Shown one piece after another: positions 38,683 to 45,646 of a stretch of DNA of 64,000 nt. This DNA comes from Methylococcaceae bacterium. Its GTDB lineage: Bacteria; Pseudomonadota; Gammaproteobacteria; Methylococcales; Methylomonadaceae. The stretch's first letter is position 1. Every line of letters starts with the position of its first letter. Made by a program: the position numbers and the translations under genes. The notes under the pieces are model-generated. The model was not told where the DNA came from. It did no database searches and saw nothing but the letters and a program-made list of their open reading frames with translations. The DNA lies in the NCBI GenBank assembly GCA_013140705.1, contig JABFSH010000021.1, forward strand, positions 62,001-126,000, given 5' to 3'.

Positions 38683-38832
38683 ACCCCCCCTCTAAATTTA
38701 TAAGAATAAAAACACTGTTAATTTCAACCGATAATCTTATCATTTTATAATTTTTTTTGTCATTTTATGACTCCCAGTATATGATTGAGCGATGTATTTA
38801 CTAGCCTGGAAGGCTCTTTAACCCGCACATTT

Positions 38833-40485
38833 ATGTATCAATACAACGAATACGATCAAACGCTTGTTGACGAGCGCGTAGCTCAATTTAGGAGGCAAAC
38901 CCAGAGGTTTTTGAATGGTGAACTCACTGCCGATCAATTCCGTCCTTTGCGACTGAGAAATGGTCTCTATATCCAAACGCATGCTCCGATGTTACGGATT
39001 GCAGGACCTTATGGCTTACTCAATTCCAAACAATTCAGAACACTTGCACATATCGCGCGCAAATACGACAAAAATTATTGCCATTTTACGACCCGGCAAA
39101 ATATCCAGTTCAATTGGCCAAAACTCGAAGAAGTTCCTGATATTCTCGAAGAATTGGCTCGCGTCCAGATGCACGCCATACAGACCAGCGGCAACTGTAT
39201 GCGGAATACATCGACAGATCATTTGGCTGGAGTTTGTATCGACGAAATTGAGGATCCAAGACCCTATTGTGAAATTATCCGGCAATGGACCACATTACAT
39301 CCGGAATTTGATTATTTGCCACGCAAATTCAAAATCGCCGTTAGCGGCTCATTGCGTGATCGGGCAGCAACTCAGTTTCATGATATAGGCGTTCACATCG
39401 TTAAAAACGATGCGGGCGAAACCGGCTTCAAAATCCTTGTTGGCGGCGGCCTCGGAAGAACACCGATAATCGGTCAAGTCATTAAACCCTATCTGGAAAG
39501 ACGTCATTTACTCTCGTATCTGGAAGCTATTCTCCGGATTTACAATTTATTTGGCCGTCGTGACAATATGTATAAGGCTCGAATTAAAATCCTGCTGAAA
39601 GAATCTGGGATGGAAAAGTTTTCAGCTATGGTAGAAAAGGAATGGCAGTTAATTAGAGACGGAAGAGAACTTAGCGATGATAGAATTGAAGCAATCAAAG
39701 CGTATTTTAACCCCCCCGTTTACGATCCCGATGCCGCACAAGATCAAACATTTGAACATTACCAACTGACTGACAAAGCATTTTCGGCCTGGGTTAAACA
39801 CAACCTTGCCAATCATAAAATTCCCGGTTATCGAGCTGTGTTTATTTCGTTAAAGGCACCGGATACAGCTCCCGGAGATATGACTGATACACAACTCGAC
39901 GCCGTTGCCGATCTTGCTGACCAATACAGTTATGGAGAAATCCGAATCACCCATCGGCAAAACTTGGTTTTTGCTGATGTTAAAGAACTTGATCTTTACA
40001 GTTTATGGCAACAACTGGATGTACTCAAACTTGCCACACCCAATATTGGCACAGTGACGGACATGATATGTTGCCCCGGACTCGATTTCTGTTCACTAGC
40101 TAATGCGGGCTCAATCGGCATTTCTAAGGAAATCCATCAAGTTCTGGATGACATGGACTACGTCTATGATATTGGCGAGTTAAAAATTAATATCTCGGGC
40201 TGCATGAACGGTTGCGCCCATCAAAGTGTTGGTCACATTGGCATACTTGGCGTCGATAAAAACGGATCCGAATGGTATCAGTTAACCTTGGGGGGATCTT
40301 CAGAAAACGAAGCCGCTATCGGAGATAGGCTTGGGCCCGCGATTGCCAAAGACCAAGTCACCAAGGCGATCACAACCATCTTGGATGTTTATGTCAACCA
40401 ACGACAAGACGATGAGTCATTTTTAGAAATGGTTAAGCGGGTTGGGGTCACCCCTTTTAAAGAGCAAGTTTATGCAAATCATTAA
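38833..40485 (+). CDS. cysI: Assimilatory sulfite/nitrite reductase, siroheme-Fe4S4 subunit
   Basis: 550 residues from ATG 38833 (MYQYNEYDQ, the family start; TTG 38785 is upstream in frame). Two ferredoxin-like halves; N-terminal siroheme anchors FTTRQNIQFNW and TSGNCMRN; cluster ligands CCPGLDFC and SGCMNGCAH at the C-terminus. It reduces sulfite to sulfide with electrons probably from ferredoxin or an unlinked flavoprotein, since no cysJ is adjacent. Paired with a DUF934 gene (14-base overlap), the arrangement seen in many non-enteric proteobacteria. Confidence 0.92.
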   Translation: MYQYNEYDQTLVDERVAQFRRQTQRFLNGELTADQFRPLRLRNGLYIQTHAPMLRIAGPYGLLNSKQFRTLAHIARKYDKNYCHFTTRQNIQFNWPKLEEVPDILEELARVQMHAIQTSGNCMRNTSTDHLAGVCIDEIEDPRPYCEIIRQWTTLHPEFDYLPRKFKIAVSGSLRDRAATQFHDIGVHIVKNDAGETGFKILVGGGLGRTPIIGQVIKPYLERRHLLSYLEAILRIYNLFGRRDNMYKARIKILLKESGMEKFSAMVEKEWQLIRDGRELSDDRIEAIKAYFNPPVYDPDAAQDQTFEHYQLTDKAFSAWVKHNLANHKIPGYRAVFISLKAPDTAPGDMTDTQLDAVADLADQYSYGEIRITHRQNLVFADVKELDLYSLWQQLDVLKLATPNIGTVTDMICCPGLDFCSLANAGSIGISKEIHQVLDDMDYVYDIGELKINISGCMNGCAHQSVGHIGILGVDKNGSEWYQLTLGGSSENEAAIGDRLGPAIAKDQVTKAITTILDVYVNQRQDDESFLEMVKRVGVTPFKEQVYANH

Positions 40486-41075: not shown

Positions 41076-42401
41076 CTATTTATGCATGATGCTAACACCT
41101 TTTAACAAGGTTAAGGCTTCATATAGCGCATAATCCTTTAATTCCAAAGGCTCCTTTTCTTTATCCGCAGCGTCTGCAGTAGCGCCAGCGTTTTTGCCAG
41201 CATCTTTGTTGTTTTGCAAATGATGGGACAAATCCGCTTCTTTTACCGGCGTAAACTCTTGCTTGTCTATAGATTCCAGCTTAACTCGTGCCAAGGTAAT
41301 ATCTGGCTCAATACCTTCCGCCTGAATAGATCTACCAGACGGCGTGTAATAACGTGCTGTTGTTAACTTAACTGCTGCACCATTACTGGTTGGCAATATT
41401 GTTTGTACAGAACCTTTACCAAAAGATTTTTCACCCATGATGATGGCACGCTTTTGGTCCTGCAATGCTCCTGCGACAATTTCTGAAGCCGACGCCGATC
41501 CCGCATTGATCAACACAACGATAGACGCCCCATCAATTAGATCATCCGGAGAGGCGCTAAACCGCATTTCCGAGTTTTCAATACGGCCTTCCGTATAAAC
41601 GATCAAGCCACTCTTCAAGAAAGCATCACTGACTTCAACTGCAGCATTCAAAACACCACCAGGATTGTTTCGCAAATCGATAACCAAGCCTTTTAAATCT
41701 CTGGTATTTTCCTTTTTCAACGCGGCGATAGCCTCTTTAAGACTTTCACCGGTACCCGATTGGAAACTGCTAATGCGCAAATATCCGTAATCTTTCTCCA
41801 GTAATCGACTCTTTACGCTTTTTACCTTGATGATATCGCGAGTAATAGTCAACTTAAGGGGTGCCTCTTCACCTTCACGGACCACCGTCAGTATGATTTT
41901 GCTACCGGGATCTCCGCGCATCAACTTAACCGCATCGGCTAAAGACATGCCTTTAACGGGCTTGTCATCTAGCTTAATAATGAGATCACCCGTTTTTATT
42001 CCGGCTCGTTGGGCCGGTGTATCGTCAATTGGAGAAACAACTTTAATAAAGCCGTTTTCCATTGTGACTTCTATGCCCAATCCCCCAAATTGACCCGTTG
42101 TGCCCTCTTTCAATTCCTGAAATTCTTCAGCAACCAAATAAGCGGAATGGGGATCAAGACCGCTCAACATACCTCTAACAGCATCTTCCAATAATTTTTT
42201 ATCTGAAACCGGTTCCACGTAATCTCTTTTGATACGACCAAAAATTTCAGTAAAGGTCCGTAAATCTTCAAACGGTATGGTTTCCGTGCTATTCACAGAG
42301 TCACCATTTTCTTTTTCAGCAAAGACACTGCCGCAAATACCGATAAGAATGCCTAACACGATCCCTAGGGATAAAATAAATATACTTTTCTTTTTTAGCA
42401 T
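41076..42401 (-). CDS. ctpA: C-terminal processing peptidase (S41)
   Basis: 441 residues: a signal sequence/anchor (about 7-28), a PDZ domain (about 100-180) and an S41 protease domain with GSASASEI (301-308, catalytic Ser) and the catalytic Lys329 in SFGKGSV. Cleaves periplasmic proteins near the C-terminus. Follows envC in the conserved gpmI-envC-ctp order. Confidence 0.95.
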   Translation of the reverse strand: MLKKKSIFILSLGIVLGILIGICGSVFAEKENGDSVNSTETIPFEDLRTFTEIFGRIKRDYVEPVSDKKLLEDAVRGMLSGLDPHSAYLVAEEFQELKEGTTGQFGGLGIEVTMENGFIKVVSPIDDTPAQRAGIKTGDLIIKLDDKPVKGMSLADAVKLMRGDPGSKIILTVVREGEEAPLKLTITRDIIKVKSVKSRLLEKDYGYLRISSFQSGTGESLKEAIAALKKENTRDLKGLVIDLRNNPGGVLNAAVEVSDAFLKSGLIVYTEGRIENSEMRFSASPDDLIDGASIVVLINAGSASASEIVAGALQDQKRAIIMGEKSFGKGSVQTILPTSNGAAVKLTTARYYTPSGRSIQAEGIEPDITLARVKLESIDKQEFTPVKEADLSHHLQNNKDAGKNAGATADAADKEKEPLELKDYALYEALTLLKGVSIMHK

Positions 42402-42469: not shown

Positions 42470-43693
42470 TCATTTTTTGCACCACTCAAGCGGATCAATC
42501 GGCAACCCTTTCTTACGAATCCCAAAATACAATCCAGGCTGACTACGCCCCCCACTTTGTCCAACAGAGGCGATAACATCTCCCGCGTTAACAGTATCAC
42601 CGCTATGTTTATACAAACTTTGATTGAATGCATAAAGAGTCATATATCCTTGCCCATGATCAATAATGATCAACAAGCCATAGCCTCGCAACCACTCTGC
42701 ATAGACTACCTTACCCCGATTAACGGCATGGATGTCCATACCTTCCTTGGCATCAATCAATACACCATCCCACACCCCATCGGATCGTGGACTTCCAAAT
42801 TTTTGAACTATTCGACCTTGAACCGGCCAAGGCAATTTACCTTGGAGAATGGAAAAAGCAACGTTAAAATTTGAAAAGTTTTCGTCAAAGCTTCCTGACT
42901 TTACTACTTCAGTATCTGCATTCTCAGTATAACCATCATCCCTCTCGGCAAAGCCCTCTTCCTGTGTTGGATCAGTAATCAATTCCCCACCTGAATTCTG
43001 CAATCCATTAATTAAAGCTTTTAATTTATTTTCGTTTTCCAGCACATAGCTTAATTGTTCAGCATTCGAAAATGAATTGTCATTAATTTGTCCCAAAAGT
43101 TCATTTCTTTGATTTCTAGCTCCATCCAGTAGAGCTTGCTCCGCTTTTTTTTGCTCCACTTTTTTTTCTAATTGAAGCGCTTCCTGGACCTGCTTTTTTT
43201 CTAAGTCATCCAGCCGTTTGACCGTTTTATTAAACTCAGCAAGTTTTTTGACGCGCGCTTTATTGACATAACTGTAAAACATCATCATACGACTTGATAA
43301 ACCGGGATCTTGCTGATTGAGCAGCAACTTCAACTTTTCTTTTTGACCCATAGCATAAGCCGATCTAATCTGCCCAGCTAGCTCTTTGTTTTGCCTGCCA
43401 ATTTCACTTTTATGCAAACTTATCTCTGTATGAATCTTGTTAAGACTTAGATTTTTTCGCTCGATTTCCTTATGTAATTTCTTCAATAAGGCAGCAGTTT
43501 CTCCATACCTTTTTTCAATATCAGCCAAAAGACTATTCAAATATTCCTTGTGCTGATCTAGCTGCCTCGACTTTTGTTCTTCAGTTTCAATATCTTGTGG
43601 AATATTATTGAGATTATTATCTACAGAAGTTTCGCAATTTGCATCTATTATTAAAAAGCATAGCAAAAAACAAAAAACAAATTTTTTTATCAT
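42470..43693 (-). CDS. envC: Murein hydrolase activator EnvC
   Basis: 407 residues: a signal peptide, a long coiled coil (about 30-240) and a C-terminal LytM-like domain (about 290-405). The zinc-site residues of true M23 peptidases are degenerate (GVLIDAKEGMDIHAVNRG, with the first His lost), exactly as in EnvC, which activates amidases rather than cutting itself. The coiled coil interacts with FtsEX. Lies 68 bases before ctp. Confidence 0.92.
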   Translation of the reverse strand: MIKKFVFCFLLCFLIIDANCETSVDNNLNNIPQDIETEEQKSRQLDQHKEYLNSLLADIEKRYGETAALLKKLHKEIERKNLSLNKIHTEISLHKSEIGRQNKELAGQIRSAYAMGQKEKLKLLLNQQDPGLSSRMMMFYSYVNKARVKKLAEFNKTVKRLDDLEKKQVQEALQLEKKVEQKKAEQALLDGARNQRNELLGQINDNSFSNAEQLSYVLENENKLKALINGLQNSGGELITDPTQEEGFAERDDGYTENADTEVVKSGSFDENFSNFNVAFSILQGKLPWPVQGRIVQKFGSPRSDGVWDGVLIDAKEGMDIHAVNRGKVVYAEWLRGYGLLIIIDHGQGYMTLYAFNQSLYKHSGDTVNAGDVIASVGQSGGRSQPGLYFGIRKKGLPIDPLEWCKK

Positions 43694-43700
43694 TCACAAA

Positions 43701-43949
43701 TCAAACCAGCCCGAGAAGGGATTTGCCTGTCATTTCAGAAGACTGCTCAATGCCTAGGATTGCCAACATGATTGGCGCCAAATCGGATAAACTGCCCCAC
43801 GAAAGCAATGGCTTATCGCCACGGACATATACCAGCAGTTTGATCCAGTAAGGGGTATTAGCCATCGCAATCGCATTATTTTCCGTCTCTTGCGTATACC
43901 AAAATCCATCAAGAATCAACAAAACCAAAGGCTTTGGTCGTTTTAACAT
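43701..43949 (-). pseudogene. gpmI: Internally deleted phosphoglycerate mutase gene (gpmI remnant)
   Basis: An 82-codon frame. Residues 1-36 are the N-terminus of cofactor-independent phosphoglycerate mutase (KPLVLLILDGFWYTQETENN), including the metal-ligand Asp14. Residues about 38-82 are its extreme C-terminus (WGSLSDLAPIMLAILGI, SSEMTGKSLL). The central 430 or so residues, with the catalytic Ser and most metal ligands, are gone. The joint is in frame, and the GGAG ribosome site, start and stop remain. The position next to envC matches the usual gpmI location. Enzymatic function is not possible; a residual peptide might be made. Confidence 0.85.
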
Positions 43950-44088
43950 GTATATTTTCTCCGGATGCTAAAAACCGCATCATTACCCTGATTTGACCTC
44001 AAAAAATTCGAAAGCCGTTTTATTTACATTACCCAAAGCGATAAAAAATAATGTATCATTTGGATAATTCCATTGATTTGTGTACTTT

Positions 44089-44112: not shown

Positions 44113-44233
44113 AAAGTTACCATTATACATCAATCCACACGAGCAATACCCGCATATCTACGATATCTTTGTTGAACCTTGATTGATTTTAATAAGTAAC
44201 CCCGCAGCAATTCAACTATCACGCGATAATCCC

Positions 44234-44494
44234 ATGCTATTTAATGAGACGCCAATTTTGTATATCGATGCCGACATAACCAAAGCTGCTCGCTGCATAA
44301 AGGCCCTATCACATCAGTTACGATTTAAAATATTGTGTGTTTTAGGTAACCGTTCGGTGAGTGTACAAGAATTTGTAGAACGAGTTGGATCCAGCCAAAG
44401 CAATATTTCCCAGCATTTGTCGATTCTCAGAGAAAGGAATATCCTGGACCACAAAAAAGAAGCCAATCATGTTTATTATTTCATTGATGAATGA
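44234..44494 (+). CDS. ArsR-family winged-helix regulator
   Basis: 86 residues from ATG 44234 (the frame is open from 44183). The whole protein is a winged helix: ALSHQLRFKILCVLGN, recognition region SSQSNISQHLSILRERNIL, and wing KKEANHVYYFID. Only one Cys is present and no ELCVCDL metal box, so it is not a typical arsenic sensor; more like the SqrR/BigR or YgaV group by position beside a rhodanese. Inducer unknown. Confidence 0.82.
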   Translation: MLFNETPILYIDADITKAARCIKALSHQLRFKILCVLGNRSVSVQEFVERVGSSQSNISQHLSILRERNILDHKKEANHVYYFIDE

Positions 44495-44589: not shown

Positions 44590-45039
44590 ATGGACCGTTT
44601 TTTAGAATTCGTTTTTAATCATTACATCTACTCGCTAGCGCTGCTAGTCGTCTCTTATTTGCTTATTCAGGATTTATTCGATGCTGTTTTCAAAAAATAC
44701 AGTGCCATTACACCCTTAATGGCAGTTACCAAAATGAATGAGGTGAATACTGTCGTCGTCGATGTTCGCGAAGTTGATGAATTTAGCAAGGGCCACATCG
44801 AATCTGCGATTAATAGCCCTCTTAGCAAATTGCCTGAACAATTATCGAGCCTGGAAGCACACAAAAGAAAGCCGATATTGATTGCCTGCGATAGCGGAAC
44901 CCGCTCTAACTCAGCGGGTAAAATTCTGGCAAAAGCCGGATTTGAACAGATTTTCGTTATTACCGGCGGTATGACAGCTTGGACAGAAGATTATAAGTTA
45001 CCCATTAAGTCAAATAGCAAAAACAAATCCCGCGCTTAA
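44590..45039 (+). CDS. yibN: Membrane-anchored rhodanese YibN
   Basis: 149 residues: one membrane helix (about 12-30) and a cytoplasmic rhodanese domain with active-site loop CDSGTRS (about 98-104). The order yibN-secB-gpsA next to the gpmI/envC locus is conserved in gammaproteobacteria, though the usual grxC between yibN and secB is absent here. Confidence 0.88.
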   Translation: MDRFLEFVFNHYIYSLALLVVSYLLIQDLFDAVFKKYSAITPLMAVTKMNEVNTVVVDVREVDEFSKGHIESAINSPLSKLPEQLSSLEAHKRKPILIACDSGTRSNSAGKILAKAGFEQIFVITGGMTAWTEDYKLPIKSNSKNKSRA

Positions 45040-45175: not shown

Positions 45176-45646
45176 ATGTCGGAAGAAAACAATACTGAAG
45201 AAAAACAATTTTCAATTCAAAAAATTTATACCAAAGATGTCTCTTTTGAAACACCTAACTCACCCAAGATTTTCACCGAAAAATGGGAACCATCGGTCGA
45301 GTTTAACCTGGGAACGAATGTAACAACGCTTGAAACTTCACTCTATGAAGTGGCTGTCACCATTACCATTACTGTAAAAAGTGGAACAACAACAGCATAT
45401 CTGGTCGAAATCATTCAAGCCGGCATCTTCTCATTAGTGGGCTTTACAGATCAGGAAATGGGCCCAATGGTTGGCAGCTTCTGCCCCAATATTCTATTCC
45501 CGTACGCCAGAGAGGCTGTTTCAGAACTGGTTGCAAAAGGTGGATTCCCACAGTTATTATTGGCTCCGGTTAATTTTGATGCCCTATACGCCCAGCATCT
45601 GCAACAATTACAGCAACAATCACCGGTTACGGAAACCATCAATTAA
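45176..45646 (+). CDS. secB: Protein-export chaperone SecB
   Basis: 156 residues with the SecB core: FSIQKIYTKDVSFETPNSP, AGIFSLVGF, LFPYAREAVSELVAKGGFP and LAPVNFDALYAQ. Tetrameric cytoplasmic chaperone delivering preproteins to SecA. gpsA starts eight bases downstream. Confidence 0.97.
   Translation: MSEENNTEEKQFSIQKIYTKDVSFETPNSPKIFTEKWEPSVEFNLGTNVTTLETSLYEVAVTITITVKSGTTTAYLVEIIQAGIFSLVGFTDQEMGPMVGSFCPNILFPYAREAVSELVAKGGFPQLLLAPVNFDALYAQHLQQLQQQSPVTETIN

Follow-up and report, generated by a model that had tools for sequence, protein, structure and literature searches.

The gpmI locus and its remnant

Our analysis of a 64,000-nucleotide stretch of DNA from a Methylococcaceae bacterium (the window) centres on a short open reading frame (ORF) that lies where the gene for cofactor-independent phosphoglycerate mutase (iPGM), gpmI, would be expected, directly upstream of envC and ctp and divergent from a second group of genes. 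The features of the locus are as follows.

41076..42401, minus strand: ctp, S41 protease (PF03572)
42470..43693, minus strand: envC, M23 peptidase family (PF01551); the rule used finds no canonical ribosome site
43694..43700, minus strand: 7-nt spacer from leader stop to envC start, the commonest native spacing
43701..43949, minus strand: gutted gpmI, proposed envC leader ORF; gpmI codons 1-38 fused in frame to the last ~42
43827..43838, minus strand: deletion junction in the gpmI remnant; ~430 native codons gone, MGNSEVGH included
43959..43962, minus strand: GGAG ribosome site of the leader, 9 nt upstream of the ATG, matching relatives' native gpmI starts
44183..44494, plus strand: divergent ArsR-family regulator (PF01022), start uncertain, between yibN and gpmI
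44590..45039, plus strand: yibN, rhodanese (PF00581)
45176..45646, plus strand: secB, named from the first-pass annotation and the gene order, which is as in E. coli
45655..46677, plus strand: gpsA, named on the same two grounds, again in E. coli order

The remnant runs for 82 codons (82 aa) from an ATG to a TGA, and its likeness to gpmI is, as judged from sequence comparison, far beyond chance. The iPGM models NF003897 (E 9.6e-13) and TIGR01307 (E 4.4e-11) each match it in two stretches, at scores far under the family cut-offs (47.4 bits against 862 and 41.9 bits against 330.65, respectively). Residues 1-38 are 76% identical to residues 1-38 of a relative's full gpmI, a further 41 residues share 83% identity with residues 471-511 of that protein, and PDB chains of iPGM match both ends. 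On a profile of 30 native gpmI sequences, the two halves correspond to positions 5-45 and 478-518 and lie in one frame. We did not find MGNSEVGH, which we take to be the serine motif of iPGM with a catalytic role, in the 82-aa sequence; the native proteins that we checked for spacing carry it. The remnant has thus evidently lost its function as an enzyme, and its descent from gpmI is supported by the identical locus and the homologous ends. It also has two of the marks by which we recognise a coupled leader ORF, namely a start with its own GGAG (spacing 9) and a stop that overlaps the next start or lies within about 20 nt of it, here at 7 nt.

An in-frame internal deletion joining the two ends of gpmI at its normal locus is what the first-pass annotation had described, and both points are borne out: the ends of ~38 and ~42 codons share a frame on the profile, and the order gpsA-secB-yibN-arsR / envC-ctp is present in all 16 relatives' loci compared, with an intervening ArsR-family gene that had gone unmentioned. 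The closest named relatives of EnvC are in Methylobacter, Crenothrix and other Methylococcales, which makes a gammaproteobacterial methanotroph the most likely host of the locus. Near the locus, at 38785-40485 on the plus strand, the window encodes a sulfite/nitrite reductase-type protein (PF01077, PF03460). A AAATGATAC-like element upstream of the gpmI start (about 44040-44080), which recurs in several of the displaced loci described below, may belong to the promoter of the operon or be an ArsR-family site.

A long-type iPGM encoded elsewhere

The genome that contains the window (4.28 Mb, 82 contigs, 99.97% complete) has a single iPGM match over threshold, a complete 554-aa protein of the long type (G000:C36:7066-8727, L178). 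It carries PF01676 and PF06415, and its most similar PDB entries are 3igy and 3nvl, with 1ejj less so. The gene is flanked by an FGGY-kinase gene on one side and the gene of an 829-aa protein without a Pfam match on the other. No gpmA match in this genome exceeds the cut-off of 81.7 bits, and we rejected gpmA as the substitute since there are only two matches, both weaker (40.3 and 32 bits). The first-pass annotation had offered, as one of two possibilities, a second phosphoglycerate mutase, either gpmA or another gpmI; the additional enzyme is there as the long-type iPGM, and the gpmA version falls away.

We searched 237 family genomes for long-type iPGM and retained 61 of the 63 that matched, dropping G133 and G137 (G numbers are our genome handles) because their proteins are of native length, with 521-aa frames and 39-40% identity. 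The 61 genomes fall into two clades, one of 29 with proteins 83-90% identical to that of the window genome (the reference, itself counted) and one of 32 at 52-56%, so that there were probably at least two acquisitions. In the iPGM search of the family, the best E-values in these 61 genomes range from 1.5e-71 to 9.2e-134, whereas full-length native gpmI, among the matches listed, gives E 1.4e-203 or better. Because they fall short of this level, no full native gpmI was found in any of the 61 among the matches listed, and the two genes appear to exclude each other in the family. Genomes with native gpmI are interspersed among displaced ones in a ctp tree in which many forks are weakly supported, which argues for repeated displacement or loss.

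Spacing and ribosome sites in native operons

Native gpmI-envC was studied at 39 family loci, three of them without a detected envC start and two (G098, G107) with a mis-taken gpmI start. At the other 36 of the 39, envC begins between 8 nt inside gpmI and 21 nt after its stop, with a median of 7 nt. Termination-reinitiation depends on short gaps: according to the excerpted text of PMC10666635, hardly any of it was left at about 20 nt, and as little as the final 15 nt of the upstream gene can be enough. The native spacing is therefore within its reach. The coupling would not be general, given that gpmM and envC are 33 nt apart in E. coli.

A canonical ribosome site precedes gpmI in 32/39 native loci and envC in 1/36. 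We initially regarded the missing envC site as decisive evidence and dropped this argument after a control, because secB, gpsA and yibN mostly have no canonical site either: by the same rule one is found at 8/51 secB, 1/12 gpsA, 4/69 yibN and 66/72 ctp starts, against 11% of background ATGs. The window's own envC has a duplex score of -5.5 when no spacing rule is applied.

Proposed leader ORFs at displaced loci

The displaced loci examined number 61, from 59 of the 61 long-type genomes plus G003 (77% complete) and G211 (76%), which have no iPGM match and were added for their usable locus. The two other long-type genomes, G090 and G170, have no complete locus on a contig. We located six loci through ctp, as no arsR lies alongside (G103, G113, G114, G116, G136, G159). 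Left outside the counts were G092, G112 and G175, whose native gpmI is truncated by contig ends; genomes with neither an iPGM nor an arsR match (G063, G076, G099, G166, G231, G232); G024 (only weak EnvC matches), G223 and G233, also without an iPGM match; and seven leaderless loci at the order level, outside the family (G039, G041, G047, G051, G054, G055, G060). We assigned starts, leaders and lineages manually, having already seen the data, and the tests below are post hoc.

A gpmI start is recognisable by hand in 41 of the 61 loci. In 33 of these 41, an uninterrupted ORF of 18-195 codons runs from that start and stops close to the start of envC, at most 4 nt beyond it or 13 nt short of it; we call these loci coupled. 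The least sure starts are those of G033, G148/G149, G158, G173 and G201. In Candidatus Methylobacter oryzae KRF1 (L071), for example, a frame that opens at a GTG continues without interruption until it stops 7 nt short of envC. The ends of gpmI are often retained, down to 23 aa: leaders of 23 codons resembling the first 11 and last 12 codons of gpmI occur in G154 and G161-G163, with variants in G146, G167 and G168. Some leaders keep only the N-terminal end, among them the 18-codon leader of G067, whose stop abuts the envC ATG, and that of G095, which overlaps envC in an ATGA; gaps of 3 nt also occur.

The leader has a ribosome site in 29 of the 33 coupled loci, and envC has a canonical one in none of them, compared with 9 of the 28 other loci (Fisher P 0.0004, the nine coming from two lineages). 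Folding at the start sites discriminates weakly: the leader start is the more open in 25/33 (median 0.45 versus 0.38 for envC).

Eight of the 41 loci with a gpmI start are uncoupled (G002, G003, G068, G101, G160, G169, G179, G210). None has a canonical envC site, and duplex scores of -5.0 to -6.5 are seen only in G160, G169 and G210. A reading frame further on still ends 7 nt before envC in both G068 and G101. In G160 (L185, oriented 1299-1434), one short ORF follows another with gaps of 3-4 nt, and the two may pass ribosomes on from the gpmI start to envC.

No gpmI start is recognisable in 16 of the 61 loci; envC has a canonical site in five of them, all of one genus, and not in 11. In four further genomes, G010, G145, G147 and G150 (L168, L199, L202, L200), envC itself seemingly begins at a gpmI-like start with GGAG. 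This gives EnvC an N-terminal extension of about 37 residues before a signal-like segment in G010 and G150, and a less clear one in G145 and G147. Four loci without arsR match at the threshold used (G114, G116, G103 and G113; L250-L253) have no gpmI start before envC, and their yibN-, secB- and gpsA-like genes are still divergent. The locus of G159 (L254) is rearranged, since its arsR match and envC-ctp share a contig but are far apart.

Deletion junctions and the frame

The profile of native gpmI detects remnants at many displaced loci, and the breakpoints differ, as these profile positions illustrate: 45|478 in the window, 35|448 in G027, 49|463 in G219, 96|403 in G075, 38|497 in G208, 39|489 in G211, and both 34|301 and 356|445 in G026 and G143. 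We scored a junction when both sides matched at E<0.05 and at least 20 positions were missing. By this rule 13/14 junctions stay in one frame, or 11/12 without G143, which shares both of its junctions with G026 (P 4.7e-5 at an expectation of 1/3). The excess persists at a looser threshold of E<0.5 (13/15, P 3.1e-5), with G208 and G211 counted once (10/11, P 1.3e-4) and with G210 scored against for its premature stop (9/11, P 0.0014). Three in-frame junctions, in G068, G101 and G210, occur without a coupled leader from the gpmI start. Remnants of G003, G068, G101 and G169 are out of frame; the out-of-frame junctions of G003 and G169 are unscored, with a side too short or no positions missing, and the first of G101 is counted only at the looser threshold.

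When single random deletions were simulated in 17 native operons, an ORF ending no more than 15 nt from the envC start resulted in 35.2%, and neutral substitutions on short leaders reduce the chance of a coupled ORF to 12-25%. Grouping the loci into lineages by the ctp tree and remnant architecture, we count 17 of 25 as coupled and 8 as uncoupled (P 0.0009 against a null of 0.352); without the five least sure starts the count is 12/20 (P 0.02). An unconstrained frame, as expected of a plain pseudogene, is therefore not what the relatives have, on these post hoc counts (11/12 junctions, 33/41 ORFs); a single locus would not show this either way. The first-pass annotation had remarked that keeping the signals in frame is unusual for plain decay, and the junction counts, the ORF ends and the deletion null all support that remark.

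Change in the proposed leader peptide

In nine related pairs of leaders, dN/dS is 0.38 (G026/G143), 0.48 (G208/G211), 0.67 (G153/G144), 0.47, 0.30, 0.34, 0.32 and 1.28, with one value undefined; changes are few in the shortest pairs, and not every pair shares one architecture. The corresponding envC values are 0.08-0.23 (0.08-0.14 in the three named pairs), and four pairs of native gpmI give 0.02-0.07. Neutral simulations that forbid stops have medians of 0.64, 0.74 and 0.71 for G026/G143, G208/G211 and G153/G144. Against these, the observed value has P 0.04 in the first pair, which is the longest, and P 0.15 and 0.46 in the others. The leader peptide changes almost neutrally, which suggests that the frame and not its product is maintained. 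Stop-free leaders are expected by chance at 0.33, 0.47 and 0.70 in the same three pairs, so the lack of stops is not surprising alone; what speaks for a kept frame is the pattern of deletions together with the 33/41 ORFs.

Had the 82-aa protein proved to be a conserved family in relatives, the idea of a reduced gpmI would have suffered, as the first-pass annotation recognised. Relatives instead keep the start, frame and stop, but differ in length and have a near-neutral peptide. Alignment to the relatives' gpmI-envC locus, also proposed there, went beyond that annotation in revealing a recurrent short gpmI-derived ORF leading into envC.

Discussion

Among these methanotrophs, gpmI has repeatedly been cut down to a leader of envC, for the most part in frame. 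We propose that displaced gpmI probably persists in cis, as a leader ORF through which coupling supplies envC with ribosomes. In native operons envC, a few nucleotides behind the gpmI stop, would most likely be translated by ribosomes that have just finished gpmI. Once a long-type iPGM encoded elsewhere takes over the phosphoglycerate mutase activity, a xenologous displacement, the native enzyme would be redundant, and deletions that spare the ribosome site, the start codon, an open frame and the stop at envC would be tolerated, most frame-breaking ones being removed by selection. Because gpmI and envC are probably coupled, displaced gpmI could be gutted while ribosome entry, frame and stop stayed in place. 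What is left would bring ribosomes to envC, with a peptide that is probably irrelevant. The data establish the displacement, the in-frame remnants with their spacing and recurrence, and the near-neutral change of the peptide. We infer the dependence of envC translation on the leader, and coupling is the best-supported cause.

Part of the data would fit plain decay, in which gpmI is simply useless, deletions are random and the window's junction is in frame by a chance of 1 in 3. A lone deletion does stay in frame with a chance of 0.34, remnants are broken, frameshifted or vanished in G002, G003, G068, G101, G169, G179 and G210, and 16 loci have no gpmI start. Such decay is nevertheless unlikely to be the whole account, as in-frame joins recur with different breakpoints (11/12 scored junctions) and 33/41 ORFs end at the envC start, where neutral substitution leads one to expect just 0.12-0.25. 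Somewhat less probable again is that translation of the leader shields the transcript from Rho-dependent termination or RNA decay, with no reinitiation at envC. This likewise predicts an open frame from the gpmI start, a free peptide and varied lengths, but protection alone needs no stop near the envC start, and the ATGA overlap in G095, the abutting stop in G067 and the 3-nt gaps are then left over.

That the remnant is a functional small protein made of gpmI ends strikes us as improbable. We do not favour a conserved miniprotein in view of the varied lengths and near-neutral peptide change: leaders range from 18 to 195 aa with differing contents, most of the enzyme is missing, some (G067, G095) have the N-terminal end alone, and two of the three simulated pairs look neutral (P 0.15, 0.46). 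On the other side, dN/dS is below 1 in 7/8 computable pairs (0.30-0.67, and 1.28 in one), the longest pair, at 0.38, is somewhat lower than neutral simulations that forbid stops would give (P 0.04), and the ends of gpmI are often kept, down to 23 aa. The first-pass annotation had also considered an assembly artefact in an organism with a full gpmI, and a draft of 82 contigs invites the thought. We reject it, and give it a negligible probability, because gpmI is gutted at this position, with different breakpoints, in other genomes, some of them in 1-4 contigs (G023, G026, G027), and because the 99.97% complete genome has one iPGM match over threshold.

The coupled leader that we prefer resembles several known systems. 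A review proposes, in the excerpted text of PMC12548453, that short upstream ORFs may serve solely for ribosome delivery. Those ORFs share with ours the small size, the own ribosome site, the stop at the next start and a product that is probably irrelevant; here the ORF is an eroded, displaced metabolic enzyme that ranges from 195 to 18 codons among relatives. Termination-reinitiation coupling, as excerpted from PMC6728339 and PMC10666635, has the same overlap or very short stop-start distance. The need for upstream translation was measured in those systems and is deduced at gpmI-envC. They are usually described for two functional genes, whereas upstream gpmI is dead as an enzyme; and the excerpt of PMC10666635 emphasises that the genes most often overlap by 4 or 1 nt, whereas the spacing that we see most is a gap of 7 nt. 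In the excerpted part of PMC2964296, phosphoglycerate mutase genes have a patchy bacterial history of loss, gain and lateral transfer, with displacement well known, and this fits our family; in our case both the incoming and the displaced enzyme are iPGM subtypes, and the displaced gene remains in place as an open frame. Compared with native gpmI (NF003897/TIGR01307), the remnant has the same locus, start region and C-terminus without about 430 codons and the serine motif. Judging by titles and the beginnings of abstracts in the open-access literature, we recognised no precedent for a displaced gene kept as a leader.

Most work on translational coupling uses reporters and a small number of gene pairs. 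On this one operon, evolution has seemingly repeated a deletion experiment many times, in which the enzyme was dispensable and the ORF mostly was not. If so, coupling would limit bacterial gene loss and provide a birth route for ribosome-delivering upstream ORFs, and annotators would have reason not to dismiss a short in-frame remnant as debris, since it may be a working cis-element. A broader version, which we hold tentatively and with near-even expectations, is that displaced heads of coupled operons do not have the option of plain loss: they are ground down in frame to leader ORFs, some no longer than 18-23 codons, and freed only when the next gene gains a ribosome site of its own or the old start. 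Were this true, it would be a general source of bacterial upstream ORFs and short in-frame 'pseudogenes', and the methanotroph gpmI-envC loci would display the successive stages as a natural series.
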